Shown here piece after piece: positions 7,313-64,000 of a DNA stretch of 64,000 nucleotides. The notes below the pieces were generated by a model that saw nothing but the letters and a program-made list of their open reading frames with translations, was not told where the DNA came from and ran no database searches. The stretch lies in contig CM034546.1 of assembly GCA_020055645.1 (NCBI GenBank), forward strand, positions 89,032,001 to 89,096,000, in the 5' to 3' direction. Made by a program: the position numbers and the translations under genes. How positions within the stretch are numbered: position 1 is the stretch's first letter; the number at the start of each line of letters is the position of its first letter. The stretch comes from Tomocerus qinae (taxonomy: Eukaryota > Arthropoda > Collembola > Entomobryomorpha > Tomoceridae).

Positions 7313-8015
7313 TAATAGTCACTTAGGTAGTTATTACGACTTCGTTCTTGAGTAAAACCAATCTTGTATTAGTTTTTAAAAAACCCATTATGTTAAGTGT
7401 TGTATTATAAACTGGAACCGCGTCTTAAGTGCTGAGGGCTTCTCAAGACGTCCAATCGTCGAACCGATACGTAGAAATCGGCGTCTTGACGACTGTAATA
7501 AAATTCATACCCCTAGTGCCCGTCCATCATTTGTCGCAATTCCATAGTTGAAAAATTTTACCCCTGATATTTAATTTTTATCTTAATTGTAACTATGGAT
7601 TAAATAATCATAAAATAAAACTTTATATTCCTCCTTTTTCGTCCGAAACGCTCATATGAATCAATAACATCGTAGGTATGTGTAAGAAATATAGAAAGAG
7701 AGCTACCAAGCACCAAACGTCATAAACGTAATCAAATTACACACAGGCAACGAATTTTAGCTCAAATTATATGTGTATTTCTACATTATTAAACTATTTG
7801 CTTAAAATTACTTATATATTGTCTAAAATGTTCTTAAATATTGCAAAATGTTGAATAACTTACACATTTCCATCGATTATTTACTATATGTGACTAATTC
7901 CTGCGCAAATAAAGTTTTGGCCTAAAAGGTCACTTTTTTTTGGCCTAAATGGGTTTTCAGAGTTTTTGGTTTGGCCTAAATGGGTTTTGCCTATTGGCCT
8001 AAACACCCAATTAAG

Positions 8016-11000: not shown

Positions 11001-12733
11001 TGCATACAAATGTAATGGTAGACTTAGAATATGCAAATTATTCAGCATTAGATCTTTTACCTCGCACACAATAAAAGTGCCTACTTATCATTGAGATATG
11101 CTTAACATGCTAAACTTAGGTGGATGGCCAATACATGCCATAATCTCTTGTACAAATTGGATTACTAGTGAACCCTGCCTTACCCTAGACGTGCATCTGC
11201 TGACTGCATTTGCTTTTGACAAAATCATCGGTTCAGATTTAAAAATCTAGAGACGATTTTCGACGCTTGGCTTGTCTATAGACTGCCATCAACTTTCGAT
11301 AAAACTGAAGCTTATTACTAATTTCATTTGTCAACGCTTATGGTCTTTAATGTTGCGAATAATGGCTAAATTGTATTGTGTTTCGGGAATGCTGTCAGTA
11401 AGTGAGGAGTCGTGAAATGGTGTAGACTGCAGAGTGACATATCATAGGAAACATTATATTCTCTCTCCGGAGAGAGTATCTCCAGAGCAGAAGAACATTA
11501 GTTCTTTCCACAGACTAGACAGATAGTATTTGATTACATGAGAAACTGCGATGTAGCGCTTTATACCTTCTACACGTGCAACGATGTTACGTTTACATTA
11601 ACGATCATTGGCAATTTTGAGAGCATTTGGACACGTTGCGTTGTTGAGGAAGAAGGGAGATTAGAGGAGGATGCCCTGCATTGCATTACGACGGTATCCC
11701 ATCTATAATAGAGGTGATTTCATTGCGTTGGCTCTTTTTATGTTCCTTGCGCCTTCATGCTCAAAGGAAATTAGACTAAACGAACGGAACGAGGAGAGAA
11801 AACCAAATCAAACCGAACAATGCGATCCTTGCAATCCGTCCGACTGGAAGGCTTCGTGTCTTCTAAAGGTTACTAAAGCCGGCTATCATCACATTAATAT
11901 GCTCTATATAATATTATATCTATATAATATAAGTCAAATGGATACCCTGAGTATATCTTGGAGAACTTCACTATTATTTATTTACTATGCATCAATGAGT
12001 ATGCGAATACAAAGCGTTGTCCTTTTACCTGCCCATTCAAAAATATTATCCTACTTCTCGGTTCTATGCAACCATAAAACAATGCAAAATGGTCGCATAA
12101 ATGTTTTAATATCAATAATAAGGTTTGTGACTCAAATAACTCAAGCAGAGTCAGTGAAATGGGCATTTAATTTTAAATAAGCCAATCCAGAGCTAATCAA
12201 CTTTTCAAGCCAGGCAATTGGACTCCACACACAAGATGCGTACTTTACACTTAGATGCTCAAGTATCAGTTTAATAGGGAATAAATCGCAAAATAATGTG
12301 GATCGACTTGACTTGAATGATTGTGTAAATTATAGTGCGTTACGAAAAGTAAATGTCGAAAATTAGTGGGGATATATCTTGTGCTTCTGTTATCATACAA
12401 GAACGTATCCGATTGAAGAGACGGGGAATATTTCAGATAAGAAATAGGGAGCAGAGTTAAAATGGAATGGCATTCGTTTCAAATGGATTGGATTCAATAG
12501 AATTTTATAGCGTTAAACAGAGAAGTTTTTGGACGAGAGTCAAAAGAGAGAAAACTTTGTAAAGTATTCAAGACAGATACTTTCCTCCCCACTAATCACA
12601 TTCTTACTACGCCAACAGATATACATGCGTCACCGCCCATTGACCCACACACGCCATATCAATGACATGGTCTACTCCACAATTCACTCCTTTTATAAGT
12701 AACACTTGACTTTATTCACAAAATTATCATTTA
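8016..12733. other. Intergenic DNA, no gene seen
   Basis: A+T-rich sequence. The longest open frame (11671-12180, plus strand, 169 codons) has no recognisable domain and is within what chance produces at this composition. No repeats or RNA genes were seen. Confidence 0.55.
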
Positions 12734-12989
12734 TCTTTACTCTACATAAACATAAAGTGGGGCATGCGCATGGGATTCTTTCACTATTCTTGAATAAATG
12801 TTTGTATCTATGTCCGTAATATTTTGTAATTAATGAGTAAGGGTAATATTTTGTAATTAATGAGCAAGGACTAGGCTATCAGTACTGAGTCCAATCAACG
12901 GTCTATGAAATTCGGGCCAATGCGCAGTCGCTAGAAATTTACTGATTTCAACATTTTCTAGCACACTTTATGTGCTAGGATTCAACTAG
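12734..12989 (+). mobile_element. Non-autonomous Helitron, copy 1
   Basis: It begins TCTTTACTCTAC after a host A and ends CTAG before a host T. Seven bases before the CTAG lies a perfect 8-bp hairpin, CTAGCACA / TGTGCTAG with a 5-base loop (12958-12978). These are the hallmarks of a Helitron: 5' TC, a 3' hairpin followed by CTRR, insertion between A and T, and no target duplication or inverted ends. The body contains a 21-base direct duplication (TAATATTTTGTAATTAATGAG) and no coding sequence. A second copy of identical length at 25570-25825 defines both ends independently. Confidence 0.88.
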
Positions 12990-15900
12990 TCATACATAAT
13001 AACAACTACTATAGAACTAGTTGTAACCTACCACAATCACGTATGCTACAAAACTGTCGAAATAATATGAAGATACCAATCGATTGCAATCGACAAATAA
13101 ACGGGCATGCTGTGATTTGCCACATTGAGTAGGCCAGGTTAGGTAAAAATTGGCTTAGTTGCTTTACCAGAATGCGGCAGATTAACACACAATAGTACAT
13201 ATATAGTACATATATTTTGCTGCGCATGTCCGAATTTTGAGCTTATGCTATAATAATGATTTACAAATACACTTTAAGATTGAGTTCAAATACATAATTT
13301 TTAGAAACTCAATAAAATTCAAGAACAATCTAATTTTTAAAAAATTACAAAATATTCTTAAAGGGGTCTGGAGTTTTGTTTGCTTTAAAAAGTATTTTAA
13401 CTATTTCACAATAGCCACTATGAGTTTCACAGTCCAAAATTGTCAGAGCGTTGTGACCCTCCACGGACTTTAATTTTTAGATTATACTAACTATGTCCAG
13501 ATTGATGGAAAATATATTATGAGAGTTATCCATAATCAGGTGAAGTAGGAATACAAAACCAAAGCCTCCCCTTGCAGTTAATTACCCTTTAATTTATACA
13601 GAAATCTCTCCCACTAGCAATGTGACCTGAAAACAATTGTTAAGCTTAATAAAACCAAACCTAAACGGTTTTCCAGATAATATCTCCATACACTTTTTTA
13701 ACCTTTCTCACTATTCTCGCCTTTAAACTTGTAAAAAAGTAATCTTAAAATTAGATATATCCAAATAGGCAGATTTAGTACATGGTATTAGTTTGGCGAT
13801 GCACCCAACGGGCAATGACGTATTATGGAAATATACACCTATATTTTATATACATAACGCACTTACCACTACTACTTCTGTTTGATCTCCATCTTCTATG
13901 CTAATGTAATCTTTGGAGTTGAAAGCATAGGAACAATATTATTTCTATAAAACACATATTAATATGTCCGTATGTACATACTGACTCTCACCTACTTTAA
14001 TAGAAGTACATCCACAGATCATAGTAGGGTATAGCAGGTGTTAGAGTTAAACTCAGTTATATAATAATAGTACTACAGTTATGGAGTAGGGACTCCTTCC
14101 GTCCTTTCCCATTAAAAGCATAACCTGAGAAAATAAGCAACCCAATCTACATGTTAGGATTGAGAGTCGAAATTGGTTATTTACATAGTAATCTGGAGAT
14201 TTGCAATTCCAAACCAGTACGTAAACCTTTAACTTGGCCTACTTATATTTAATCCTTAATTTCGTCTATAGACCAGTGAAACAATTGACTAAGGTTACTA
14301 TTTGAATTACATTCCATAAATGTATATAGTGCAAATTCTAAATATACTTCCTATCTTGTAATAATTGTATTACGCATGTAAGGTTATCAAGTTCACGTCA
14401 TTACTGTTGTAAACCAAACATTAATTTAATGGTGGAGGACTAATAAACTCAGTAAACACGGTGTATAATAAAGTTATTTTAAAGTTAAAGTATTTTTGTG
14501 ACCTAGTGGATCTAGGGTAAAGAGACCCAAAAATGTTGTAAAGCCAACCTTATTGGCAGATGGTAATAGACATCCAGATCAGTCACGTATGTACGTAGGC
14601 ATAATTCACTGGCATACGACGACTACGTACAACTTTCAGAAGTATCAACAATAATTTCAACCTAAACCCACTTTTACGATCGCTACCTCTTGTCCGACGA
14701 AGATATCTCAAATGGCTCACATAAATATTAAATTACATACGTAATAATATAGCATTTTGCGATGCGAAGAAAAACGTTTCTTAAACCCTAGAATATACAG
14801 CCCGTATGTGTGGCCAATTAGGCACAACTCTTTATATTTAGGTCCTTATATTTGTATAACAGTCTCCTTGTTTATCTGTGTGCATGCTTCGAACCAACAC
14901 GTATGTATGAATAAGCTAGTTAAAGCTGAGGTCGCTGTTTCTGTCTTCTGGATTAGCCAACCTTATAATACGGGATCCTACGCAGTCCCACTGGTAGTCA
15001 AATATAGCCAAAGTGTAGATAGGCTAAAGAAACTCGTCGTTGATCCTCCTAGGCAAGTCTTAGTTGAGTTAATCTGTTTTATTTACTACCTGATTACACG
15101 TTCACTTGACTTCGTTTGATGTGGCTACGCGACAAGTCTAGCTAAAGGTCAGGTTCATTACTTTTTACTCTTTCCAAGCATTTCTATTGATGCTGTGCAC
15201 TACACACTCAAGAATATCATTTAAATCTCCACATTTTTGGTTTATTTATGATAAGCAATTACACCGTCTATTTGCCCTTCTATGTGTAAGACTAATATTT
15301 CGATTCCAGCTTTCTTCCCCTACATTGCCATTACTAAGTCCGTGTCTACTCAAATCTTTTGTTTGTCTATTAAATTCCAGTTTTTTCGTTATCTGTCCCT
15401 TTGCAGAGTTGTAGTATTATTGTAAGCCGTATAGTTGATAAAGTGCTGGCTCTAAGTAAAAAGGCCAAACCAGAAAACAAAGTGTGAAATGTCCCTAAAT
15501 GACTCGCATTGCATTGCTTGGATTTCTCTTGACTTTTTGGCGACTATAGGGATCCTCTATTCTGAAACCTTATTGCGAGTGTGAGCCACAGAAAGCGCGC
15601 AATGTATATGCTACAAAACACACGTTGGGGCGGCCCTACTCTTCGCCAGCTTGAGCATGAAAAATGCTATCTTCCATGTTTTAAATCATAAAAATATGAA
15701 ATGTTTTTTAAAAATACTGACTCGTTATTGCAATCATTATAGGAACAAAAATATCTTCAAAATGTTCATATGTTGACCACAATTAATTTTTTAGCATTAA
15801 GTGTGCTTTAAAATACAGCTTCCTACGCCCCGGCGTGGCTTTGGTCGTTTACTTACGCGCCACGCATGAGCAAAGGAATGGAGGGTGCCTATATACGACT

Positions 15901-24300: not shown

Positions 24301-25569
24301 AGAGAAATGATGCATATTGCATATTTATTCAAATCGTGACTGAGAATCTCTCTGCTGAATTACGAATTTCTTCTCATTTCGCTTTGGGTCCAGCAGAAAT
24401 TCCTCCAGCCTTCCCCAGGATCAGGAAATCTAGAAATTACAGCTTTCTCAAATAGAAAATAAGAAATTCTTATTCAGTAACTTGACTTGACCTTCATCCT
24501 CAATATCCAATCCCTTACTATTCTTTTATGAGACACTTAAAACATTCTGTACCCTGCTCGCCTAAGCTACTCCACTCCCTCATCTACGTACTTACCACTC
24601 CTCCACTTTCATCCCATTACATTATATGTATGTTATACTACATCATATATTATTATGTTAGAGCTTTTCTCTTAGTACTGCCATTGCAATAGAAAAAGAG
24701 AGATGAAATGAAAATGCAAGGCAAGGCTATAAAACAACTATGGATCAATTTCATTCCGACATACTTAGACTACTGACTTACATATTCCGTTTCTATCTCC
24801 ATCCACGACTTATCTCTCCTACCTACGCAATGCTTTCACTCTACCACTCCAACTCTCGTCACCCTCATTTACCTTTTCTCCATTTAGTTCACACATTCAT
24901 ATTTCTAGTATTATATGATATAATATACAGTTTGGTCAGTAATAGCTAAATGGGACAAAAATTACAATCCCTACTTGAGGATAGTTCATACAATTGAGGA
25001 CACAGCTGATTTATATGTTAAATTCAATAGTGAACCTTGGAAGGATTTAGCCAGGGGTTGAATGAAAATGTGAACTAAAATGGAACTACTGTTGAACAAA
25101 TGTTGTAAAACGGAGGAAATCATTATATTTTGGACAATTAGGTACCATTTCTTGTCTTCCTTTGAAAAGCTTTATTATGCCACCCCTCTAATATGAGGCA
25201 AAATCATGTGAAAATCTTGTCTAATTAATTACACTCTATCCTTTATGAATGAATGACGTTTGTAGTTTGTTGTAACATTACCTATTAAATTAAATGCTAC
25301 ATAATACTATTCTTATCTATTATACTATTATAATACTATTAGTATACACACCTTATGAAAAGCATACAAGCGCGTAGAAGAAAATTGTCCTAATTTAAGC
25401 AAAACTTTTTACAGTAAAATTCTCTTGTGAATACTAAATTCAGAACTATTAAATAGGTGCCTATCAATCACGCACAGACTTTGCATTTAATGTATATTGG
25501 TGCATATTACAAATGATGAGGAGGGACACAAAAATAATTTTCGACGGGTACCAACAGTTTTATGTATTA
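21353..25569. other. Intergenic DNA, no supported gene
   Basis: The longest frame (21878-22432, minus, 184 codons) is rich in runs of Ile, Asn and Tyr codons typical of random A+T-rich DNA and shows no domain. I see no transposon ends or RNA genes. Confidence 0.5.
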
Positions 25570-25825
25570 CTAGTTGAATCCTAGCACACAAAGTGTGCTT
25601 GAAAATGTTGAAATCAGTAAATTTCTAGCTACTGCGCATTGGCCCGAATTTCATGAACCGTTGATTAGACTCAGTACTGATAGTCTAGTCCTTGCTCATT
25701 AATTACAAAATATTACCCTTACTCATTAATTACAAAATATTACGGACATAGATACAAACATTTATTCAAGAATAGTGAAAGAATCCCATGCGCATGCCCC
25801 ACTTTATGTTTATGTAGAGTAAAGA
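25570..25825 (-). mobile_element. Non-autonomous Helitron, copy 2
   Basis: This is the reverse-complement copy of the element at 12734-12989 and is also 256 bp. On the minus strand it starts TCTTTACTCTAC after an A and ends CTAG before a T. The 3' hairpin stem has one mismatch here. It carries the same internal 21-base duplication. The copies differ by scattered substitutions, so they are related but not a very recent pair. Confidence 0.88.
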
Positions 25826-28800
25826 TATTTACTTAGCTTCATTTACTAGTCCTACTTGTCTAGTATTATGTACAGAATAATCGGCGGTCTTCAAGACTCA
25901 AAAACAATCGCGTTTAGCACAAGTGGGTTTTCTTTCTCTAAGGTCTATAGAAAAGAAAGCCGAGATTGGGAAAGCAAAACAGAGTATGTCGGTAAACAGG
26001 AGTTCTTCATGAAGTTGTTTGCCAAAGATAAGCCAATTCGATCTGCTAAACCAACAGCCAAGTGAAAGTCTCTTCCTTATCAACTCCGTTGTCTTATCTA
26101 TCACACTGCTCCACAAAAACCAAAATCATGTTCACCTCCCTAATGCTTTTCCTTTTTGCTGGACACATAATTCAATATACTCAAGTAATCATAAATACAG
26201 ATTATCGTCATCCCCATCATATATTTCCCTGTCAGACTATCCAACGTACTGCAGCTTTGCTTTCAGCAGTGTACTAAGTAGATATATATGTTGGAGGTAT
26301 AAGAAGTGTTAGACGATCAAGCAGTATCATACAAATAGGTATGTATAGTAGGTAGAGTCCGTGAACAAGTCCTTATCTTAGAAACGAAAGTACATGTCAA
26401 TGAAACTGGCCTTTTACAGGCCAGAAAGAGTAGTTCATTTTTGTTAAGCATTGCAAAAATTTTATTACAATTGCAGTGCAAATAGAGAGCACTGAATGAT
26501 TTTAAAAGGTTTATTAAAATCACGTAGCAATTCACTAAGTAATTAATGTAATAATCTGCTGCTCCCCACATAACAGATAAAACCGAAAAAATGGCAGTCA
26601 TGAAGGTTATTTCTCTTTGAAGAATCTCTGTTAGTATTTACGGTATAGTAAAGAGCCTATTACGGTCTCCTGAGATTTTCATAAAATGTTGTGTATATCA
26701 CAGATCTCCAGGCAAGAAATTAATATTATTATCTTATCACGTACAGTTGAAATGTTCTCATAAAGGAAAGTGACTGTAACAGGACAAGCAATGTTATTTG
26801 CATTTACTTAAAATGTAACTAACTGCTGACACAGAATCCATGCGAAGATATTTTTAACAGTTCTTAGTCTGCTCTTTAAATATTTTATAGCAAGTAGTGG
26901 TATCTGCAGTAAAAGCGTTTACACAAAGTATTCTGGGACTAGAGGTGTTTAAGTGTTTAGTGCGACTCGATGTACACTTAGTACACAATAACGATGCGTT
27001 GATATTATTAACGTATCTATTACTTGCTACGCTATATCTACATTGTGTAGTTTAGTACAGTAACCTATATTATTCCATTATATATTATTGTGTTTGATTA
27101 GCACGTAGTGAAAAAAAACTGTTTTCATTTGGCCATGTCTTCAAAAGCACTTAATTTAATATTTTGAGTACATAATATTTACATGTGCATTATATATAGA
27201 CATTGCAGTGGTTGACACAAGTAGACGTGGACATGCCATTTGTTTTCATTTAGAATCCATCTACAATATGACAGTACTGTAGGAAGTTCATATACCACTA
27301 GTGCATAGTGGGATTTAGAAAATAGGTCCACCTATTTCTTACTATGTAAGTAAGCACTATGCTTGTGAATAGTAGTAGCAGATAAACAAAAGATTTCATT
27401 TAGGTTATGAAAATTTTGAGAGTATGGAACAGGGAGAGAAGAGAAACATGAAGTACATCTGTGATGATAACGATTCCATCTGCATTAAGTAGGTAGCTAT
27501 TGTTTTGTGATAGAATAAATATTGTTAGTGCTGGGCAGGTACTTAGTGTGTAATTTGTAAGACGTAGGAAGAAGTTGTGTTGATGGTGAGTATAGGAAAT
27601 GTGTTGGTTGTTCTGTCGTGTCATGTCACTGCAGACGAAGATAAAATGAAATCAATTTGAGTTTGGAGTGTGTAGTGCATGTGTGATATTGTGTTGGTGA
27701 AAACAAATAGCGAAGCTTCTCCACATCATGCTCCATGAATCATTTCGGTAATAATAATTGAGGCAGTTGCTCATTAATAACGAGGCCAAACGCTGCCAGG
27801 AGCCAAGTAACCCAGTCAGGATAAGGCTCATCTAACCTGAGTAACGATCCGTGTGACAAAATGTGACAGACTCAAGCAAACCTACTTGAGATTCAAGAAA
27901 CTCTACTCAAGTGGCGAACACTGACGCAACAACACCGCCGTTCCACTCTCCTCTCTATGTACAGGGCAAGTCCGTCATCTCCACAAACCTCGTTCATTAA
28001 CAAAAATATTAAAACTTTCAGAAAAAGGTATTTTCATAAATATAGGGAGGTAAAAATCTGTCGATTCTTTCAATTTATTCAATTATTACCAATAGAGTAA
28101 CCAAATGAATATACTAAATAGTATTTGATTAGTTCTGCATGCTAGTTATTTTTAATCGATTTACTGTCTATGATATTATAAGACTATTACTTATGAACGG
28201 TTATATGGTATGACTGAATGTGATAATGTAGGTAGAAGTTGAATTAGATTGTGGCTGAAGTGGCCAGTGTGTGCTTGGGGTTGAGGGTTTGTCGAATCAG
28301 CCTGTATGAAATTCTTATATACCTACCTGCTGTTTATTGTTAAACGCACGAATACATTTAAGATGTGAATGTGTGTGTTTGGCATATGATGACTTTTATA
28401 ATGTGCTGCAGAGATGCAAAATGCAAATATGTTTTCTGTGAGTGTGTATGATGGACAAACAGCTAGCAATGAAAAGCGAGAAATCTTATCACCTAATTCC
28501 AACCTACTTATAAACACACGCTCTACTTCCACCAAAATCTCATAAAATGCACCATTTATGCATCTAAAGTATTTACATGACGAGTTTTCGTTTTTTCAGA
28601 AATCTATTAGGTGTCTGTAGCCATATTATTCTTACGTATTCATTAGATCTACTATTCATTCACAAAGTACAAATGCATTCCCTTTAATTTTATGCTCAAG
28701 TGCAAAGGATTAAAGTGGCACCAGCACGATGATACGATATAATAAGTACCTACGCTGGCATTTGGCATGTGTGCACAAGCAAAGGGTATAACAATGTGTT

Positions 28801-29827: not shown

Positions 29828-30576
29828 ATGACATCTCATGTTGAAGGGAAATGGAAACAGTTCGAGTTTCGGATGATTACGACTCGGGAAGTCTACCCTA
29901 TGGTTTTAGATCATCTCCATAAATTCTTTTGTCATAGTACACCTATGCACAGAGGATTGGAGCGTTCTCAAGAATACTTTGATGAAATTGATAAAATATA
30001 TCTAACTACTCTGCCACAAAACCTCAGTTTTTATGCTTTGGATTTGGAAACCAATGAAGTGAGTTGTGATTGCATATTGTTTAATTCTTAAATTATTTTA
30101 CTTGAGCATTAAAAATGATATTTCAATGCAATCAGATTGCAGGGCTAAGGATTACATTCGTACAAGATAAGGCCTTGGAGCAGACATTCGAAAATCTGGG
30201 ATTCAAAACCAAACAGATGGAAATAATCAACAAAATTTTCGGGACTGTTAACAGAGATTCAAAAGTCTATGAAAGATTTGGAATAGATTCGTATGTGAAT
30301 TTCTTTACTGCTTGCGTCGATCCCAAATATCAAGGTCAAGGGTTGGCGACTGAGATGTACGAAAGGGCTTTGAGCCTCATCAAGTCAAACGAGAAATTTA
30401 CTTTAGTCAAAAGTAATCTGACTTCTCCTTACACTAGGAAAATATGTCACAAGTTTGGATTTCAAGAACTCTCTCGGGCTTACTTTAATGATTTCAAAGA
30501 TGAAAATGGAATACCCCTCCTTAATGGGTGCAAGGATGATGAATTTGTGGCCTTCATGTGTCTGAAATTACGATGA
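29828..30576 (+). CDS. GNAT N-acetyltransferase, arylalkylamine NAT-like
   Basis: Two exons, 29828-30058 and 30136-30576, are joined by a 77-base GT-AG intron in phase 0 (donor GTGAGT, acceptor TGCAATCAG). The product is 223 residues, usual for the insect aaNAT-like group. Acetyl-CoA binding motif A is visible: the strand FFTACVDPKY, then QGQGLA (143-148), the family's Q/R-x-x-G-x-G/A loop. A later KFGF block (about 181-184) matches the C-terminal part of the fold. The N-terminus (YPMVLDHLHKFF) fits the helix common in these enzymes. The family transfers acetyl groups to arylalkylamines such as dopamine, serotonin or polyamines. The substrate cannot be told here. No signal peptide, so probably cytosolic. 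No neighbouring gene within 10 kb. Confidence 0.88.
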
Positions 30577-41800: not shown

Positions 41801-44070
41801 CTAGCAACAGCAAGTTTCTTTCTACTTACTACATAATATGTACTGGCATTCTTTTGCTTTCTTTTCGTGACTTTCCCTGCCGCAGCAAAGTGAAAGTACA
41901 CTTTCGGCTATTTATGTACAAGGGAAAGGACATTTATTTACAGCTGGCTGTATACTTATATTTTCCGTTTCTCTGCTATTCTACTGCATTGGACATTGAA
42001 TGAAATCGACGACCTATCTCCCAGTCCGCCGGTAGACAAATTCTTGTTTTTCTGATACGGATATACTGTAGTATCTCTCGGAGGTAAGCCCAACATTACG
42101 AAAGGGTCGTGGAGTATAGCAACATTATGCTTTCTAGAAAGTTTAGGGTGTACTTCATATTTTTAGCCACAGCCATAAAAATATTGTAAACATTCCAAAA
42201 TAATCCAGCAAGACAATATTATCACCTTTTACCGAGTTCATTCAACAAACAAAAAATAAAATTGGTTAAAGTTTTTTGCACTTTTGGGTTTTTCAATCAT
42301 TAATACTATTTTACTCTTTTTAAAAGCATGTTAAGTAGTATCTATCACCGCTATATAAGGTAATGTTGTCTTAATGTAATTAATATACGTAAGGACTGTC
42401 AGCCAGATCACAAAAACTTAAAAGGCAATCCGTCAAAAGTAGAGTGAAAAGGCTCAACTTTTGTTCCCTAATGTGAACTAATCCATCAAACCTTGTTGAA
42501 AAAGTATTTTCCATGAATGAGATGGATTGGAACATATAGCATTGTATTTTTGCTAGTAGGGCGGGTATTCTGTTGTTTATTTGTTTGCTTGTCTTGCAAT
42601 GCTGGACTGATAATGTAATTACCTCTATTAGCAGTATGTCCTATTTGTGGTTATTCTATGACCTAGTTTATGGTTTTGAAGACTGTTGTGAGTTGTAGAG
42701 GAAATGAAATAGAATAATAGAAAACAAGGACGCTGTCATTTTTCGGATTTTCTTGCATGAGTTTATGTCTTTTTCATTGCTCATCTCACACCGCAGTGTC
42801 ATAGACAAAGGGAGATAGACATGGCACGACATGTCATAACGACAGAGAGAAAACCATTTACAAAACAGACCGAAATGAAACTTTAACAGAGTAGGACGTA
42901 ATGCAGTCATATTCTTTTATGCTGCGACTCTACTTACACGATAAGAAAATTATTAACCCTTTCTCTTAGCAATAATTGAATGTCGGGCTGGACAAGGAAA
43001 GCGAATTTCATTATTGGCTCCCTAATAATTCCAGCAAACAAGCAAAAACAAAAACAACAAGAAAGTACATTCTCCTTTTGTGATCATCGTCTGAAATGAA
43101 ACACATATGAGGAAAGTTACAGAAGATAACAAAGTAATAGCCTTCTTCGTATCTGCTTATACTAAAACAACATCTCCAGATAAGCAACATGAACAAGGGA
43201 GTAAATCAAGGGATTCGCCACACTAAAAGTACACGGCACAGATAAACAGATATCTAACTCCAGATAAATGTATATAAATAACAAATAATCTAAAAGTACA
43301 TTTTTTCGTTTACCTCGTACTATTTCTCCTCTATCAGTTTTCTAGTCAAATTTCAAATCAGCATTTCTTTTTTTCCATTCAATTCGATATAAAGTATCCC
43401 TACGTCTGCAATAATGCACTCGGAGATAATATTTTTACACTACAATGGAATGTTTACATAATGGCGACTTATAATATAGAGTATAGCTATAATTTAATAT
43501 AGATAGAAGCATAACACAAAATGCACATATTGTAGGTGCACAGCCACTCCTGTGGGATGTCTTATCTTCTTTTACATTTATATATTTATTCACCCGAAGA
43601 AAGCAATCGCATATCATAGAAATGTAAAATTCCAGACTAACATTTTCATTTCACAATACATCCGAAACTATATTACCCACTCTGCGTACACTCCACAGCT
43701 GGAGATTTAATACTAGAATATTTAGAATATTTTGAGATACCGATATTATGTAATAAGATTCTTTTTGATTAGCTCTTTCCTTTCATGGCATTCTCTTGAT
43801 TCCACAACAAACACGACATTGTTCCATATTCCAAGTATTACTACAACGGACTCCATCTGTAATTACTGCTTTTGCTTATTGTGTCATATGGTTATATGGT
43901 TGTGCGAAGAAATGAAATCCCTGGATATATAATTAGTAGGAATATAATATTACGATGAAACAATTAAAGATATGAAGTCCCAGAGATATAATGTTAAACT
44001 ATATAGGACATTATATATAGTATACATGCAGGGAGTGAATGAGTCAAAAGTTGTCTGCAATCACATTATG
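35897..44070. other. Intergenic DNA, no supported gene
   Basis: More than 8 kb of A+T-rich sequence with chance frames only. A minus-strand stretch near 38.15-38.3 kb reads LEELYLDSN like a leucine-rich repeat, but it stands alone and has no splice context. Confidence 0.5.
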
Positions 44071-44075
44071 AATTC

Positions 44076-45178
44076 CACCCTGGGAGGAGTATAGAGAAAA
44101 GTGATATATATTATGCATATAACAAATATCACTGATTGCAGTCCTAGGGGACTCTAATAACTAGTATCTGACACTTTTTTGTGGAAAAAATTTTTCTGGG
44201 GGGCGTAATCCCCATCTGGGGCTATCTCAGTTCCCTTTGGAGGTAGGGCCTTGAAATTAGCATAGCATCTGTCTTAAAGGTAGTTTAGGTTATCTACTGA
44301 GTTTCATCACAAAATTCGCAATACTTTCTGAAATATTGCATTTTTAAGCCTAAATTTCGGCGTTTTATGACCTCATTTGACCGTCTATAACTTGCAAGAT
44401 GGGATCGATATAAGACATTTTACATTTTTAAACCATGAAAGGCATGTATGTGCATCGATTTCAATTGGAACTAGAAAAAGAACAAGCCTACTTTAGGAGA
44501 TATTGACTCTTAAAGTTTGGGTAGTAAAGGGTACAGAAATTGAGGCGAAGCTGAAGTAAGTGACCAAAGTTTAGCAACACAAAGAGTGAAATAATGGAAT
44601 TTCTTTTGAAAAAATCAGTTGCTGATCACTCTACTCCATTATGCTTTCGTTGTCAATTTCTATTTCTGCTGCATCTTCAACTCGAGTTCAACACCATGTG
44701 AAGCTTCGCCTCAATTTCTGTACCCTTTACTACCCAAACTTTAAGAGTCAATATCTCCTAAAGTAGGCTTGTTCTTTTTCTAGTTCCAATTGAAATCGAT
44801 GCACATACATGCCTTTCATGGTTTAAAAATGTAAAATGTCTTATATCGATCCCATCTTGCAAGTTATAGACGGTCAAATGAGGTCATAAAACGCCGAAAT
44901 TTAGGCTTAAAAATGCAATATTTCAGAAAGTATTGCGAATTTTGTGATGAAACTCATTAGATAACCTAAACTACCTTTAAGACAGATGCTATGCTAATTT
45001 CAAGGCCCTACCTCCAAAGGGAACTGAGATAGCCCCAGATGGGGATTACGCCCCCCAGAAAAATTTTTTCCACAAAAAAGTGTCAGATACTAGTTATTAG
45101 AGTCCCCTAGGACTGCAATCAGTGATATTTGTTATATGCATAATATATATCACTTTTCTCTATACTCCTCCCAGGGTG
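44076..45178. mobile_element. Foldback element with 477-bp near-identical arms
   Basis: The arms 44076-44552 and 44702-45178 are inverted copies of equal length around a 149-base centre. I saw one mismatch between them. Both ends read CACCCTGGGAGGAG inward, and AATTC flanks each side (44071-44075 and 45179-45183), giving a 5-bp target duplication. The whole is 1103 bp and non-coding. A CAC start with a 5-bp duplication recalls Transib elements, but the terminal heptamer is not their consensus, so the superfamily stays open. Confidence 0.88.
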
Positions 45179-45183
45179 AATTC

Positions 45184-48100
45184 AAGTCTGAGTAGTTTTA
45201 AGACTTAACATTACAAGCTGAGCCAACTTTAGAATACACGCGTCTCCAAAAATATTATCAACTCAAATTATTATTCTATTGACCTTGATAGCTTGTACAC
45301 TTATATGCGAAACGAAATATTATTATACTAAGTTTTCTCAAGCTTGCAGACAACAGGTATATAAAGAATGTGCGTTGTCTCCTGATTAGGAAGCTTGTTA
45401 GTAGAAGATTAGTCACGTCAAACTTATTTTTAGCTGGAATTTTCTGGTTTATTAGCTGGCAATTAGATTTCCTTACTTTTGCTAATTTGCTTTTGCTTTG
45501 CTACACCAAGTTTTAGAGAAATTAGTCACAGCTTCTCTAATTAGACACAGATACGTCGCCTGCTGCCTACAATATATAAGAAGTACCTACATCAGAACTT
45601 AGAAAAGGTAGGTGGTATATTATGGATCTACTGCGCTATTCTTTGCATTTCTACGTAGCATCGTCCACGAGCAAAAAGAAGTAATCACCTTCCCTAGAGG
45701 AAATTGGTGTAATTGAATACATCGTTGGACCATCAAGTAAAGATGTTTCAATTCGAGCGTAATTCCCTTTACTGTAAATACTTTTAGTTTTTGTTTTACA
45801 CTTTCTTGTGAACTTATTCTATGCAGGTACCGGTACCTAGTATTCTTTAAAACTGGATGGTAAATGTTACCCAGAAAATGCACCCTAGAAATGATTTCGG
45901 AAGAATACTACTCGGTAGCAGTCGCGAGATCATTCATTTGAGCAGTACCACAAACCCGCAACCTTTCTGCTATTGCGAAGGTCTTCTAGTCTCAAGAAAT
46001 AGTATCAATCATTTGAGCAATCGATAGAAATGTAATACTGACTTGGCCTCTTCTTCCGTTCGATTCCTGAGCCAACTCAAACTCTTAATGCTCACAAAAG
46101 ATAAAACTAGGACAAGTAATAAAAGTATAATATGAAAGATATAATAGAAATCTAGAAGTACTAGAATAGTTGGATAGATGACTAAACATATCAAATCTGC
46201 GAGTAGAGTGGCTACCAAAGTTGAACATGGCCTGCCCTACTCTTTTCCGTAGTAAACAATTCTAGTACCTACTGTAGTACGCTAATCTTCATAAAGTAAA
46301 TTGTCAATCTTTTAGTTGCTTGGTTGGATTAAAATAGGAATGATAAAAGTCAAGAAAAGTCTTTGGCTTTAGGCTGAATGCGATTCTTTAAATCCAACTA
46401 ACTGCACTGTTCTTGGCATTTAAGACAATTTAAGAGAGTCTCAACGTCTCGGTGCAATTTACTCGACTATTTACATGTTTCCTTCTTTTAACATTGTTGC
46501 TGCTGAACATTCATTTACTCGCTATATTTTTATAGCTAGTGATGTTAAATAAGTACTTACTAAAATAATAAATTTCACGATGTAAACACAGCAATCTTTA
46601 ATGAATGCCTTCTTTTTCTCATGTCAACGTGGCTATCCCCATGAACAACTCTTAAACAAAGCAGTTTCTGTACTACACACACACATCTGACTATTTTCTT
46701 CATGTTTTGTTTATCTTAATTGCTCTATAACCGTGCGGAGCCAATTTGTAGAAAAAATAAATAGAAATTCTTGACATTTTTTACACTTTCCTACAACTAC
46801 AATTGCAGCTAGCAGCTCTTCTATATGCTTAATGGAGACTAAAAATACTTAGGAAGATGAACACTTTGTTCTCTCTTCATAAGCAATGCAATTCAAATGA
46901 TATTGCTTGATATAGCTGATACGCACTCTGGTCTACTATTTCTACAGAAAATCCGATCTAGGTCAGGTCAGTCAGTCAGTCTGCTCTGTGATTTACTGCT
47001 AAAGATTCCATTGTAGGGAAATCATCCCATTGCTTCCATTGTGAACTGTTCTAAGTGTTTAGAACGCTTTTTGGCATCGCACCTTATTTTCTTACATAAG
47101 TAAACCACTGCAAAAGACCGGATTTATTAATATGAAGTAAATTCAAGATTTTGGCAATAGAAACAACATTAGAAAAGGGAGTTTTTAGAGTATAGCATTA
47201 AATTACGTATAGTAATATAGAGTAATTAGCATTTTAAAAAGTGCTAATCAGCCTCAAAAGTCTCCTGATGTCTTTTATAATTAATTATTACTGTTTTTTC
47301 AAAGATGTGAAGCGTTTGAACATTGCTTCTAATCCGCGTTATTAAGATTCTTTTACAGTGAGGAGTTTGTTAAAAAGATTTATGTAGGCTGTGATTGGAA
47401 GATACTTTCGGGGAGTACAAAGTGAAAGCATAGAAGCAAAATGAAGAGAGTAAAATTTTATTTCCTTCTAGTTTACATGTCATGAATATTCTTTTCTTTC
47501 TCCTTCTGCCTGTCGCTCGGCGTCAGCTCGGCAATAAAACATCCCAAGCTTCAGCATCCATTCAGATTTCTATTATATAGAACTCTCAAAGCTGACAATC
47601 AACAAACACACTTCTTCATCTCAGTTCATCTGTACTCCACTACACTTGTGGAGCTCTACATTATTAAACACAAGAAAGTTATGTACCACTTATATAGAAG
47701 CAAGCAACAATTTATCGCACGAGTATAACTCCCTCGGATTCTACGGCTAACAAATTCTCTATCTGAGTGTTTCTTTCTCCATTCCCAGAAAAGGGGCTTT
47801 AATCTTTTCATCCCAATAACTTTGTTCAGCCATTTAAAATTGATGCGTTTGACTTGAAAACACAATAATTGCTTCAGCCAGGTCCTAAAACAAATCTCAA
47901 AACTGAAACTACAATAGTTCATTATGCGGAAGTAGAATTTTTAAGAAAGTCATTACTAATGAGTGGTTTATTCAAAGTCGAAAAGAATAAATAATATCAA
48001 TTTGGGTCATAAAAATTGATGGGTCTGTATTTTTATGTTGGGGAGTTTATTTACGAGCGGGTATACAATACCCTGGGCAGAATAAGGCAATTCTGTGTGA

Positions 48101-50319: not shown

Positions 50320-50323
50320 AACT

Positions 50324-50726
50324 TGTAAGGAGTGTCCTACACACACGTTCGTCCACCCCTTACCAGCCATTCCGCACCCCAAATACACTACATTTACCTA
50401 ACCAATTCCATTCCCTTCTATCCAAATGACCCGAACCTTTATAAGTCCTGACACCAGAACATAACTCCAGTTCCCTCAGACTCGCGACACGATTCACTCC
50501 TTTTTCCTAAATACTCTATTTCCCAACTACCATTCAGTCTAATACTCAATAAAGTCGTACAGTCCACTAAACCTACTCTGACTTGTACACTCTAACCTTT
50601 ATTCACCGAATCGGCATATCCATCTCTCACCTCATCTCTTCATCTCGTCATATCCTGTAGCTTGGATCCCGAACCTAGCAGGTTTGCTCTCCCTTTGTCC
50701 TAACATGGGGAGCCAAACCCTTTACA
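50324..50726 (+). repeat. 5' LTR
   Basis: It starts TGTAAGG and ends TTTACA, and matches the 3' LTR at equal length. Its short pyrimidine-rich segments and ATAAAG-type motifs may include promoter and poly(A) signals, but none can be fixed by eye. Confidence 0.9.
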
Positions 50727-50728
50727 AA

Positions 50729-53817: not shown

Positions 53818-54932
53818 ATTTTGGAAACACAGGGTTGTTCGACAGAATGAAGAATAAAAGGCGGCGGGATGAGAGAATCACGACATAGTAACAACGGATA
53901 CATGACTACCACACAGAATACAAAGTAGCACCACCGATCCATGAGAAATAAAATTCGTCGAGACGTCGATGAAAAGACAAACAGATCATGGCAGAAGACA
54001 CACAAACTTGGAAATTCGAATAAAGCGTAACATTTTGATAAGATATTTGAATTCTAATTTTATCGCTATTTTCCATGACGTACAGAGCGACTTCAGGAAC
54101 AACGATATCATCAAAACCCAACCAAGGATGACTTAAAAACAGCATTCTCCGACGACTAAGCAACCATTGGGACAACTCTGATTTCAAGATCAGACCACGA
54201 CTTCACTAAGCGATTGCAGCGGCATTATTTCGTTTACTGGATACAGTTCAACAATACTGGACTAACAGAGGATGCAGGATATTTTTGGTTCTTCCACACC
54301 ATGTAATCATTCCTACTCGACATCCAACTTATCCTTAAACTCAACTACGACTCTCCAAAACTTCGTCAACTCTCAGCGACCAAGTAAGCTAATATTCGCA
54401 AATAATTTTCGCGTTAGACAGTGCACACTTCATTCTTCAATACTAACCAGTGAAAGAAACAATTTAGAACTAAATCCAAAAGTTCTAACATTAAGAAAAG
54501 AAGTGATGAGACAATTACCCAAAGTGGACTAATTTCGTTTAATAGCATATTAGTTCAATCATATAGTAAGATTTAATTAGTTAATGTTATAATAATACTA
54601 TTCCTATAATATATAAGGATTTAATTGGATATATAATTATGAAATGGCTTGAAATTATAAGTATATGAGTATGACTGTACATGAATATTTAATGATGAAA
54701 TAATTCGAAATGTTATATAATATCAAATGTATGAAATTAACAGATTCAGTTTTCGATATTATTATTTTAATTATTTAATGGGATAAGAAGTGCAATTAGA
54801 ATGTTACTATAAATAATCTAAAAATAATTTGATTTTTGTCAGAATGAAAACAATTGTTATGAAGGTATGTTAAATGATTATGTAATGATGTTCAAATTTT
54901 TAATTCTTGTCAAAAAGATTGCGACGGGAGGT

Positions 54933-55335
54933 TGTAAGGAGTGTCCTACACACACGTTCGTCCACCCCTTACCAGCCATTCCGCACCCCAAATACACCAC
55001 ATTTACCTAACCAATTCCATTCCCTTCTATCCAAATGACCCGAACCTTTATAAGTCCTGACACCAGAACATAACTCCAGTTCCCTCAGACTCGCGACACG
55101 ATTCACTCCTTTTTCCTAAATACTCTATTTCCCAACTACCATTCAGTCTAATACTCAATAAAGTCGTACAGTCCACTAAACCTACTCTGACTTGTACACT
55201 CTAACCTTTATTCACCGAATCGGCATATCCATCTCTCACCTCATCTCTTCATCTCGTCATATCCTGTAGCTTGGATCCCGAACCTAGCAGGTTTGCTCTC
55301 CCTTTGTCCTAACATGGGGAGCCAAACCCTTTACA
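54933..55335 (+). repeat. 3' LTR
   Basis: It matches the 5' LTR in length and almost in sequence. It is preceded by the purine tract GACGGGAGG and followed by the target duplication AACT. Confidence 0.9.
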
Positions 55336-55339
55336 AACT

Positions 55340-58300: not shown

Positions 58301-60580
58301 ATGGAAGTGTACATGGCGTGCTATATGGCCAAAATGTTTAGCCTGTGTATGTTCAAAGTAGGATTATTATAGGTACGTAGTTACCTTATGAAAATGTTTA
58401 CGTGATTTATGAGCTCTGACGATGACAGAATTATCTTCCTCTTTTCTTCTCGTTTCCTTTTTTCATGATTCAGTCTTGTGCATTAGTATTCTGCACTTTG
58501 AGCTCTAATATTTGTAGTGATACTATGCTTAAGAGTACTCTAGTCGGCTGGAGAGCGGATATGTGCTTGACATTGGCAGAAACTCTGTGCCAATTTTTAC
58601 GTTATACCAAAGACTTATCGACCAAAGTGGGCCGTGTAAGTAATTCAGACTTATATCCGTGGAAAAGTTTCCCAATTGTTGTTCTTGGAGCGAAGCACTT
58701 GTAAATGTTTATTTGTGGTTACACTATTCAGTTCACTAACATCCATCCATAAACATCATATGATATTGCGTATTTGTTTGTTCTACACTACGTCGTGCAT
58801 TCAACAATACGCTAGATGCTTACTCAGATGGAATGTATCGGTGATATAAAAAGACCTGCAATATTTCAAAATTAGGAGTATAGTTTGTAGTGCAAACTTT
58901 TCGCGATGTAGGGTAAGCAACGCGCTGACTTCTAAGCTGGTTACATACGTCACGATTGCATTGCGTTGATAAGAAATGCTGACTGAGGTGAATTGAGACT
59001 GTGCCTTTATAGAGCAGGGAAATGGACACACTTCCTCTTTGGTGATGCCTCAAGCAAAGGATTTTAAGGAGCACAAAATGCGTGGATATTCTGACTAGAA
59101 ATCAACTCAATTTACCGTAAGGTCAAGCCAGTTTTAATGAAACTTTCTGGAATTTTTATTGCCTATATCTCACAATTTTGTGAAAAACAAGGTATTACTT
59201 AGTAACTTAAGTAGTATATACAAATAAATGACATATGAATAAAGTTGTAGTAGTCATAATCGAAGAGTAATTTAGGTGATAATGCTTTTAGCGTTCCAAT
59301 TGACGAATCAAAATAAATAGTTATTAGTTTAAAAGCAACTCATTCTGCATCAATTTTTGTACACTTCTAAGTGAAATTAGGTTTGCGCAGAGGAGATTCA
59401 TTTCCTTATGAAGATAATTCCAGTATGTAAGTTTAAACTATACAAAGTCTCACATGAGATAATTGTCTGCGTCTTCTACATCTCAGAATAAAGTTAACTG
59501 TTATTTTTGTCATTGATTCAACTAATTTTAGAAATGCAGAGATAATAGGACGCAATGTAATTGCGTAGATGGTATAAAACAAGATAAATGCAGAAATGGG
59601 GAAAGCAATTAGGAGGAATGCTCGATCTTGTTCCATCTCCATTCACCATCAGCCATCAACAAGGTTTATATTGAAGTAAATGAGCTTTCATTTTGTCAGA
59701 AATGATAGTCATCTGCATAGTCAACGATTTCTCATCTTTCACGTAATATTTTCCACTTTATTGCTCCATTTGACTCCATCCGCCTCCTCGATCTCTGTTT
59801 CTTCTCATTTCCTTTCTTTGATTTCCCTTCTCTCTTCAACTTTCGTCTGCATTTAATCAAATGCTCTGGTAAATGTCCCTATCTTCCTTTTAGAAACAGT
59901 TAAAGTGTTGCTGCAGTGTCTTCTCTGTATCTTTACAGTAATTTGATTTTCAGGACGAAGGAACGAACTGTTAATGTTTAAATACTGTTCATTCATTATA
60001 TGTCAGTGTGCAGCAGTAGCCAAATACATCGTGGGTGGGTGAGCAGCTCATTTTCATATCTCATATCTAACTTCCTTAACATATGCTTGCAATATTAAGA
60101 AACTACAACACGTCTCTATGTAGGCAGAGGAAATTGAGTTCCATTTTTTATTGCACCATTTTCCATTGAGTGAGTCAGCCAGTCGACTTGTTGATGGATA
60201 GAAATTCGTTTGCACAATAGTTTTTCTTCGGAATATTTAACTTAATTTTCTACTCCACCATTTATGGCAACAGAAGAGAACCTGAAATACTATAATTACT
60301 CACGACCTCGACCTATATTGTTTGACCAGATTGAGATAATGTGAGAGAGCAAAAGTTCATCTCATCCACTAATTCTCATATCAGTTCTTCGGGAAAGGGC
60401 TTATGAAATTGTAATTATAACACAGAAAGTTGAATTGATACTTGCAAGCTTAAAAGTATTATGTGTGAAACTGGAATAGGATCTATATTGATATAACATT
60501 CCACAGCCTAAAGCCTTTCACGCATATAACTCGCTTCCTACAGCAAGCTTCTTGCTTTTTCCATCGTGCGTTTTCTCCGC
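55340..60580. other. Intergenic DNA, no supported gene
   Basis: A+T-rich sequence with chance frames only. A short direct duplication (TTATATAGCTCCATAAT, twice) is at about 58006-58041. AGTCGACT at 60181-60188 may be an outlying relative of the palindromes to the right. Confidence 0.5.
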
Positions 60581-60929
60581 TAACTGTCGCTGTGTGATCC
60601 CACTTAAAAAACTGCGTGATTGCATAAAATTTAAGTTTGCGCCAGAAAGAAGCAGCAGAAAGCTAGATAGTAGCTGCACACTGCGTCTACGAATAGGTGG
60701 GATCACCCAACGCGGCAAGCTGCTACCGAAATTATTGTGTCGACACAGCTGTTCTAGTTTTTGATCATTCCATCCATTGCCGTCCAACTCAATATAGTTC
60801 TCCGGCTTTAAAGAGCCATTAAATATTAAGTAATTCTGATTTTAATTACAATAGACGCGCACATCGGCCGCTTTTTGTAGGTAAACAGCAAGCTGGTCAT
60901 CGGTAGAGTATTCTGAGGAGGGTAATAAA

Positions 60930-62116
60930 ATGGGTAAGTAAATAATTATTTGAGTCGACTCAATCAGCTATGATACCGAATCATTATATCCCTAATTAAT
61001 ATTTACAGCATCGAGTCAATGTGGAAACTGTGGAAGTCAAGACGGCCATTTCCGATCCAATTGCCCAAAACCTAAAAAATTATTCATTGGAACATTGGCA
61101 CGCAGCAAAGAAACAATTCCGACGGGAGCATCCGGACGAAGTGAGAAAATTACGTGAAAGAAAAGAAGAAAACAGAAAGTGGCAAGAGGAGGGAAAGACT
61201 ATACCCGTAAGAAAATCTATTTACATACAAAATAATCATAAATATATATATATATATATAATAAAAAAGTATATTAAGTTCTGCTGTGTCGACACAAAGA
61301 TATACAAATTGAATTATATATTTATTATTTCAGTTCTCCTTATTGAATGCAGCTACATGCAACATGTTGCAAACCTTGTACGATCTTTCACAAGATTTGG
61401 ACATTTTGGGTCGTCCCATAGAGTGGGAGGCAGTCAACAACGAACTGGACTCGCTTTTGCCTCTAATCCGAGAAATTGTTAACAATGGGAAAGGGGTATA
61501 TATTTCAACAAGGTGATTATTATTGAATTTAGCAATAATGGTTGTTCAAAATGTTTTTTTGTTGTTCATGCAGTTTTTGTTTCAAAATCGCATCAAGGAT
61601 ATAGTTGATGGAGACATTTTTGTCTCCAGACTTAATGATCTGCAGGAAAGCAGAGACGAACTTGTGCAGCAAGTAAAGTCTTTCGTCAATGGAAAACTGG
61701 GCAATTTGGCGCGTATGCATGCAAGGTAATTTTGCAGTTATGTGGGTCGACCCTTAACGTTGGTATAATTAAAGTCTAATGATGTTATTGTCCTTGTAAA
61801 TATAGGAGAGATCCCGTAAGCTTCCTTCGCTATGTTTACGAGAACTACCCCCCAAAATGCAAATTCACATTCGATGCTGAGCAGCTCAATGGGTCGTCCC
61901 TAAAAAAATATTTATTGAAATCTTTGTTGCACTATCATCCTGACAAACAAGCCAATTGCCAAGCAGACTGGAAGTGCATATGTGAGACATTACTATATGC
62001 ATATAATATATTATGGTCAAATTAATTAATAATTCATTTAACAAATATTGCTTTTTTGATTTGTAGGCGAAGCAATCACAAGGTGCCTTACGGATGCATT
62101 TTCTCGATTTCAATAG
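60930..62116 (+). CDS. Zinc-knuckle / J-domain-like protein, Harbinger companion gene
   Basis: Six exons with GT-AG borders: 60930-60933 (only ATGG), 61009-61206, 61334-61495, 61574-61725, 61806-61981, 62067-62116. From the start codon, exon 2 first reads a zinc-knuckle-like CGNCGSQDGHFRSNCPKPKK (C-x2-C-x5-H-x4-C, one residue longer than the usual CCHC spacing). The rest of the gene reads in another frame, one extra base apart at an A6 run (61074-61079). Without that base the length would be 246 residues. The second part has a charged helix (EVRKLRERKEEN), a middle region, then LLKSLLHYHPDKQ and ICEAITRCLTDAFSRF. The HPD tripeptide and flanking helices resemble a shortened J-domain, the part that stimulates Hsp70. 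AATAAA lies at 62234-62239. Its role in transposition is inference. Confidence 0.7.
61242..61262. repeat. TA microsatellite
   Basis: About ten TA units lie in the second intron of the zinc-knuckle/J-domain-like gene. Confidence 0.85.
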
Positions 62117-62583
62117 GGTCGACCCTCTTTAGCTCGCCCGAGGAAGCGTTTACTGATATCCGATAAAATTGATTAATTTGTGTTTAATATATTTATCATT
62201 AGTAAATGTATATGAAGTATAATTTCTATGCAAAATAAACTACAAGCCTATAAATGGACATGGATCTGATATTTGCCTTGTTTATCATATACATAATATT
62301 ATCATTAATAGTATCATCAGATAAAACCTAGATGAAATATTTTATACTATCCGCCACAAATTTATAGCAAAAATCATTTTTACTTTTTTGCCTATACCAG
62401 ATGAAAAGAAAAGCAAATAGAGTCTCTGCAACCTTTTGACCGGGATTGAAGTTAATAATCACAAGATAACTGGTTCAATATGGTAATGTATTTTTTGTTG
62501 AACAAGTATTTTTGAAACATAATTGACATTACAGAGTAGGTCGACCTAATAATAATTATTACGTAGTTACAGGTTAGTGATAA
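62117..62583. other. Spacer between the two transposon genes
   Basis: It holds the poly(A) signal of the first gene, a palindrome at 62538, and a possible tiny first exon of the nuclease gene (ATG at 62480-62482 directly before a GTAATG donor). Confidence 0.45.
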
Positions 62584-64000
62584 AAAGAGAAAATTTTAAA
62601 GTTGCTTTTGCTGAAACGCTCAACTACGAAAAACATAAAGCGCAAATACTGGGTCCATCCAATTTTCCAAAATCGAAGTGTTGATGGCGAACACATCAAG
62701 CTGGACGAAATGCTTAAAAAGTACCCGGACCGCTTTGCAGCTTATACCCGGATGTCACCAAACACATTTATGAAGCTGCTGTCTCTAGTAGGGTCGTCCC
62801 TAATGAAGAAAGATTCTAACTGGAGAAAAGCTGTACCGGTTCGAATTAGGCTTTACGTTATTTTGAGGTAATTCATTTCTAAGTTCATTTGTTCATTTTA
62901 AAATTATTGTATACGAATTTCTATTATTTGTAGGTATCTGGCAACCGGTGACAGCTTCAGGTCTATTTCAACCAGCTTTAGCTTGGGCTACACAACCGTT
63001 TGGGAAATTGTTCACGAAGGCCTTCCAGTCATTTGGAAAAAGCTAAAGGATCTCTACGTGAAAGTAATAATCAAATAAAAAATAAGGTCGACCTTATAAT
63101 AATTTTGAATGTTTATTTTAGTTCCCTTCGACAGAGGAATGGGGGAAAATCGTGGATGGATTCTACGATAAGTGGAACTTCCTAATTGTCTTGGGTCTAT
63201 CGATGGTAAACATGTAGTAATGGAAGCTCCCCCCAATTCCGGATCACTGTATTTTAACTACAAAGGAACTTTTTAGTATTGTTCTGCTTGCCACGTGTGA
63301 TGCGGACTACAACTTTACATCAATAGACGTAGGAGGTTACGGCAAACAAAGTGACGGAGGAATTTTCTCAGGGTCGACCCTAGGACAGAGATTAGCTGCA
63401 GGAACTTTAAATACTTGCGGACCCCGATATCTTCCTTTAACCACAACGTCTATGCCATGTTGTTTTATCGGTGATGAAGCGTTTCCTTTATCTACAAGGT
63501 TGATGCGTCCTTACCTGAGGAGGGTTAAATACTCCGAAGCGAGTATTTAATTATCGTCTTTCCAGAGCAAGACGATGCATTGAAAATGCTTTTGGCATTC
63601 TAGCATCACGTTGGCGAATCTTTCGGAGACCGATCGCCGCAGAGCCAAAGCAAGTTGAAAACATTGTCTTAGGTAAGCTATACAATTTGAGTCGACTCTC
63701 GAATTTTGGAAGGGAATGTAATCTTACTTTATCTTTATAGCTTGTGTTGCGTTACACAATTTCCTGAAGAAGGAAGAAATGAAGCATGGACCTGCTGAAC
63801 GGTTTTACAATCCTGTTGGGTACGGAGACGACTCCATGAAGCAAATGGTGAATGGAGAAATGAACACCCTCCTTCTGGACTTATTGATGCTAGGCCTATA
63901 TCGGTTGCAGCGCAGGAAAGGGCTTCAAGAAAATGAGGGAGGATTTGATGAATTATTTTATGGATGTGGGTGCAGTGGATTGGCAACTGTCTAAAATAAA
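62584..64000 (+). pseudogene. PIF/Harbinger DDE transposase (HARBI1-like), decayed
   Basis: The product is a Harbinger nuclease that would cut and rejoin transposon ends. Exons: about 62602-62867, 62934-63063, 63122-63672, 63741 onward. Family blocks in order: [35 protein letters not shown] (first Asp); DADYNFTSIDVGGYGKQSDG (second Asp); FIGDEAFPL; RLSRARRCIENAFGILASRW (Glu); CVALHNFL; and a C-terminal YFMDVGAVDWQ. All catalytic positions are present. The frame is broken by five single-base changes: one missing near 63182, one extra in the T run at 63270-63274, one extra near 63521, one missing near 63844 and one missing near 63931. I saw no nonsense substitution. No ATG opens the first exon, so a short upstream exon is likely. 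No stop appears before the window ends. Confidence 0.88.

Follow-up and report, generated by a model that had tools for sequence, protein, structure and literature searches.

The last few kilobases of the DNA analysed here, a window of 64,000 bases that we take to be animal-like and that has a G+C content of 35%, raise the question of why a single transposon copy should be dotted with short symmetric sites built on GTCGAC, and what might read them. Nine of the 14 GTCGAC hexamers in the window lie at 60739–63696, and all nine extend to palindromes of 10–16 bp, as the sequence-only reading that drew attention to this locus had described; the five found elsewhere (at 5568, 21159, 30814, 50248, and 60182) are palindromic over only 6 or 8 bp. 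That reading had also listed three sites of the form GGGTCGTCCC, and exactly three occur in the window (at 61408, 61891, and 62791), with no occurrence of the reverse complement. All twelve sites of the original count are where they had been placed, with the start of the cluster given one base inside the first palindrome (60736–60747), and the count itself now stands at 13 after addition of an inverted GTCGTC site at 63824–63835. A scan allowing one core change and requiring matched flanks found, in the last 3.5 kb, GTCGAC nine times, GTCGTC three times, and its opposite-strand form GACGAC once, compared with seven scattered matches, none of the GTCGTC type, in the remaining 60.5 kb. The claim of strict palindromy holds for the arms, which are symmetric at all 13 sites, but not for the centre, which is the non-palindromic GTCGTC at four of the 13; the site class is one of symmetric arms flanking GTCG(A/T)C.

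The confinement of this site set to the element is real and striking. Since the core-change scan demands matched flanks, hexamers were also counted without that condition. The segment 60501–64000 contains nine GTCGAC, three GTCGTC, and one GACGAC, all 13 with at least two matched flanking pairs, compared with five, two, and ten in the remaining 60.5 kb, where none of the 17 has them, and the set is by this measure non-random and confined to the element within the window. GTCGAC palindromes of at least 10 bp, nine of which are observed, occurred with a mean of 0.014 and a maximum of 1 in 3000 dinucleotide shuffles of 60701–63750. When palindromes with any six-base core were considered, the densest 3-kb cluster outside the element held three (TTTAAA). 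Among classes defined by a closing pair and a four-base loop, GTCGAC has nine members in the element and GTCGTC has three, against a maximum of four elsewhere (55 overlapping segments); a (TA)n run in the element yields class counts of six and five. The element has 107 short-stem hairpins of any kind where the rest of the window predicts 70, an excess due in part to the (TA)n run and the sites themselves. A chance origin of the sites is rejected by the shuffles and by the cluster, hairpin-class, and hexamer counts.

Two genes, which may together form one complete element, lie on the plus strand. The second occupies 62584–63994, with a putative start and three inferred introns. Two of its four pieces match the Pfam family DDE_Tnp_4 above the cut-off (E = 3.3e-11 and 1.7e-6), a third matches the same family at E = 0.16, and the fourth, N-terminal piece has no match. 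D, D, and E motifs are visible in the translation, at what we take to be their motif positions. The reading frame is interrupted at at least three places, through decay or sequencing error. Judging by its sequence, gene 2 is a PIF/Harbinger-type DDE transposase in a broken copy. We saw no terminal repeats or target duplication, the window stopping just past the transposase, and no inverted 9-mer match was found between 60301–60760 and the last 100 bases of the window. Just upstream of the first site there is a 10-bp inverted repeat, GTGATCCCAC and GTGGGATCAC, at 60594–60603 and 60697–60706, possibly near the left end of the element. The observed/expected ratio of CpG is 0.96 in the element compared with 0.74 in the rest of the window, and with CpG undepleted the sites have seemingly not been eroded through loss of methylated CpG.

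A tblastn comparison of eight protein pieces with the remaining 60.5 kb of the window gave five matches, the best with E = 0.19, and none is a convincing second copy of the element. No relatives were confirmed by tblastn in viral and prokaryote collections, an absence that says little because the queries were exact peptide stretches of one sequence, reaching close relatives only; two Halocatena records from the plasmid collection align with half of the query at E = 0.1. Known RNA families were absent from the window at the gathering score. The rest of the window contains several other features. Two direct repeats of 406 bp, 99.75% identical, lie 4.6 kb from each other at 50323–50728 and 54932–55337 and could be the LTR pair of a young retrotransposon. 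A near-perfect inverted repeat with arms of about 484 bp, 99.6% identical and about 150 bp apart, occupies 44069–44552 and 44702–45184, and two further inverted pairs, one of 272 bp with 96.7% identity (12732–13003 and 25557–25827) and one of 249 bp with 97.6% identity (5085–5333 and 7754–8002), are possibly copies of short elements. An open frame at 30106–30576 (156 aa) matches GNAT acetyltransferases (Acetyltransf_10, E = 1.6e-8).

The sequence-only reading had called the locus a two-gene Harbinger element. The transposase agrees with this description, whereas the pieces of gene 1 that were scanned gave no Myb/SANT match. Among PIF/Harbinger (PHIS) transposons, Harbinger and Nuwa elements combine a nuclease with a gene for a Myb/SANT DNA-binding protein (PMC7282668, PMC12730594), and Spy elements have one reading frame (PMC11304231). 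The present element resembles PIF/Harbinger (PHIS) in having a DDE_Tnp_4 transposase beside a second gene, but differs from elements with a Myb/SANT partner in that this second gene weakly matches a J-domain instead.

Gene 1 (60930–62116) has six inferred exons, in which the start and the frame of exon 2 are unsure. Read in one frame, that exon gives a weak CCHC knuckle match below the cut-off (E = 0.075), and beyond that match no recognised DNA-binding domain was found in the pieces scanned. Neither Myb/SANT nor MADF was detected at E up to 1 in two scanned pieces; a Myb domain may nevertheless be present in divergent form, or in a first exon that escaped recognition. A DnaJ match to the last two exons (E = 0.004) and a CorA match to the central part of that query (E = 0.0044) are equally weak and both below the cut-off, which calls for caution over weak matches here. 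The J-like C-terminus, with its weak match, lies at 61810–62113 and contains an HPD motif. Seven PDB chains were returned for this stretch at E = 0.16–0.42, six of them named DnaJ, Hsp40, or Sis1; the seventh, 3ag7, is named only as uncharacterised, and we take it to be an auxilin-like J domain. A longer gene 1 query returned eight chains, two of them unrelated. In NCBIfam, all matches to six exon pieces were far below the cut-off and added no support for a J-domain, and a LegP metalloprotease model matching the J-like exon (E = 0.0041) was taken as chance. Folded alone, the J-like exon had a mean pLDDT of 51.6, a model too poor to use. The J-domain identity of gene 1 is thus a weak assignment from sequence, and the main reading of the sites is independent of it.

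Placed against the inferred gene structure, the sites run through introns, spacer, and exons, as had been proposed: one lies upstream of gene 1, five in introns, five in coding exons, one at a stop codon, and one in the spacer. Site 1 (TGTGTCGACACA, 60736–60747) is the upstream one. The intronic sites occupy five of the eight inferred introns, which are short and have GT-AG junctions; they are site 2 (TTGAGTCGACTCAA, 60950–60963) in intron 1, site 3 (TGTGTCGACACA, 61285–61296), and site 5 (GGGTCGACCC, 61744–61753) in gene 1, and site 10 (ATAAGGTCGACCTTAT, 63082–63097) and site 12 (GAGTCGACTC, 63689–63698) in the transposase gene. In four of these five introns the site centre is 20–26 bases past the donor, a stretch that we take to be under the weakest constraint in a short intron. 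Site 7 (AGGGTCGACCCT, 62115–62126) overlaps the inferred stop codon of gene 1, and site 8 (TAGGTCGACCTA, 62537–62548) lies in the spacer between the genes. The coding sites are site 4 (TGGGTCGTCCCA, 61407–61418, plus strand) and site 6 (GGGTCGTCCC, 61891–61900, plus strand, about 13 codons before the HPD of the J-like stretch) in gene 1, and site 9 (TAGGGTCGTCCCTA, 62789–62802, plus strand), site 11 (AGGGTCGACCCT, 63370–63381), and site 13 (GGAGACGACTCC, 63824–63835, minus strand, in the last coding exon) in the transposase gene. The GTCGTC core is found at four of the five exonic sites (all but site 11) compared with none of the eight others (p = 0.007 by Fisher's exact test, calculated by hand).

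The exonic sites are not a consequence of the encoded protein. When the 1704 coding bases were resampled 5000 times, keeping every residue and drawing its codon according to codon usage in the element, exonic sites occurred with a mean of 0.21 and a maximum of 3, compared with five observed, and on this ground we reject the possibility that the protein sequence forces them. The exonic sites also fall in more than one reading frame. At the first of them, the palindromic version would be synonymous (an Arg codon in the standard code), and the T at that place is therefore not forced by coding. The 12 gaps between sites range from 122 to 422 bp with a mean of 257 bp and a coefficient of variation of 0.36; in a post hoc test that assumes uniform placement, only 0.016% of random placements were as even (p = 0.00016), and the largest gap, merely 422 bp, is itself unexpectedly small (p = 0.002). 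Helical phasing of the sites was considered and rejected, the best period, 11.4, not being significant (p = 0.10).

The outer bases of the sites vary while the two halves match. Re-dealing the right halves of the nine palindromes restored all nine with a frequency of 1.25e-4 in 200,000 shuffles, which bears out the earlier proposal on this point, and symmetry continues past two flanking pairs at 10 of the 13 sites (p = 0.0002 for random flanks). The arms are also partly constrained in sequence. In the left arm, position −2 is G in 11 sites and A in two, position −1 is G, A, or T, and C occurs at neither. The four asymmetric sites comprise three on the plus and one on the minus strand. Duplication of a site module was rejected as a source of the repeated arms: pairs of sites of the same type have on average 10.1 of 30 flank bases in common, compared with 10.3 of 30 for pairs of different types, and this lack of extra common flank argues against module copying.

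The enrichment, the matching of halves, the even spacing, and the excess of exonic sites over codon resampling indicate DNA-level selection along the element, a conclusion well supported by this one copy, from which all evidence on the sites comes. Because the copy is broken in several places, selection on it may have ended. Our preferred reading, which we put forward tentatively and at somewhat less than an even chance, is that the sites are selected cis elements along a PIF/Harbinger-type transposon, read as duplex by a probably element-encoded dimer that marks or regulates the element. A symmetric dimer would read the sites as double-stranded DNA, with a half-site of the form (A/G)(G/A/T)GTCG. 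Where sites are symmetric and their half-site is partly specific, dimer reading of the duplex is the simplest mechanism; the left-arm bias and the one minus-strand GTCGTC both favour double-stranded DNA as what is read, rather than an RNA signal tied to one strand. The reader would most likely be encoded by the element, as either the gene 1 product, standing in the place of the usual Myb/SANT partner, or the transposase. The even coverage, coding DNA included, points to a function for which the entire length matters, such as marking, coating, chromatin state, or transcription control. Coating at steps of about 260 bp might label the element as self and determine its state of chromatin or transcription, for example through anti-silencing of the kind exerted by VANC at VANDAL or through self-repression of transcription as by stoperators. 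The general excess of short-stem hairpins in the element and the weakness of the DNA-binding matches in both gene products count against the preferred reading.

VANC proteins and phage stoperators are the best precedents, with VANC/VANDAL the closest; neither is matched in form. VANC binds a short motif that is dense in its own transposon family and lowers its silencing (PMC5735166), and in Arabidopsis, introns and upstream regions hold the motif repeats of VANDAL21 (PMC5735166, PMC10398659). As in that system, a short motif is enriched in one transposon, with many copies per element, and rare outside it (here, in this window). The VANDAL motif reader is an element-encoded protein, whereas here it is a prediction, and unlike the VANC21 motifs, which are in tandem, in one orientation, and mainly non-coding, the present sites are symmetric and singly dispersed at 122–422 bp, with five of 13 in coding sequence. 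Mycobacteriophage stoperators are sites for one self-encoded repressor found throughout the genome, more than twenty of them in L5 (PMC9283540), and share with the present set the spread of many sites along a mobile genome or element. Stoperators, however, are 13-base asymmetric sites that are monomer-bound, oriented with transcription, and located in promoters and short intergenic spaces (PMC9283540), whereas nine of the 13 sites here are fully palindromic, the asymmetric four are divided between strands, and exons carry them too. The available portions of the PIF/Harbinger accounts (PMC7282668, PMC12730594, PMC11304231) make no mention of dispersed symmetric sites. In the open literature, to the extent that its text was available, we found no description of dispersed GTCGAC sites in a transposon; the papers with these decamers, among the matches listed, have titles that look like those of cloning papers. 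GTCGAC is the SalI site.

In a bolder form, the sites would constitute a whole-length identity code, with self-complementary tags at intervals of about 260 bp, imposed even on coding exons, by which an element-encoded dimer coats the transposon and so escapes or controls silencing; we consider this rather doubtful. The J-domain-like product of gene 1 would in that case perhaps recruit Hsp70. Such a code would amount to a VANC-like system that arose independently in an animal-like genome and whose site code is new and symmetric, a proposition that we hold to be similarly doubtful.

The coupling of the halves is more than simple dimer binding predicts, as a plain dimer tolerating several outer bases should yield mixed halves and there are none among the sites, although, with four site types, some of this matching could be accidental. 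Here an alternative fits equally well or better, namely that the sites act as single-stranded mini-hairpins, in RNA or exposed DNA, with a G-C-closed stem of three to six pairs and a loop of TCGA or TCGT. Selection on arm pairing and loop would explain both the coupled arms, extended beyond chance, and the non-palindromic centre; a stem-TCGW-stem arrangement fits all 13 sites on one strand, and the TCGT sites are transcription-oriented in three of four cases and exonic in all four. Such hairpins could be read through the possible CCHC knuckle encoded by gene 1, but the match to that knuckle is weak (E = 0.075, below the cut-off). Furthermore, one TCGT site is on the opposite strand, the DNA hairpins have weak predicted energies (+0.8 to −3.0 kcal/mol), the avoidance of C in the left arm is not required by pairing alone, and no one mature RNA contains every site, as some are intronic, in the spacer, or upstream. 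We regard the hairpin explanation as unlikely.

It is also possible, if distinctly unlikely, that a host protein binds the sites, whether its binding protects or expresses the element or host and element share a regulator. The lack of a clearly recognised DNA-binding domain in gene 1 is in keeping with a host reader, but the absence of matched flanks from all 17 hexamers in the other 60.5 kb is unlike a broadly used host regulator, one window being a small sample for this comparison. Subterminal transposase sites occur in other DNA transposons, and the set might extend such sites inward for synapsis or excision. The transposase has weak helix-turn-helix matches, below the cut-off, and the ends of the element are outside view, so that clusters there are possible; the even run of sites through 3.1 kb, including the middle, is nevertheless unneeded for end recognition, and we consider this explanation improbable. 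Very improbable, in our view, is the absence of any present function, with the sites left over from copying or mutational bias such as small-repeat spread or template switching at short inverted repeats: template switching would keep the arms matched, and the two AGG-type sites have 18 of 30 flank bases in common, but the spacing is even, the core fixed, and the exonic sites not protein-forced, same-type sites have no general flank excess, and 17 of 30 shared bases in one different-type pair make the 18 unexceptional.

Sequence-specific detail on transposons that resist or tune silencing is known in few cases, and a motif that keeps its symmetry and even spacing across coding and non-coding DNA alike would be a readable signature for finding such systems. 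The site set would test whether transposons mark their whole length as self, and should the J-domain-like gene turn out to be the transposase's partner, the usual make-up of Harbinger elements would be questioned.
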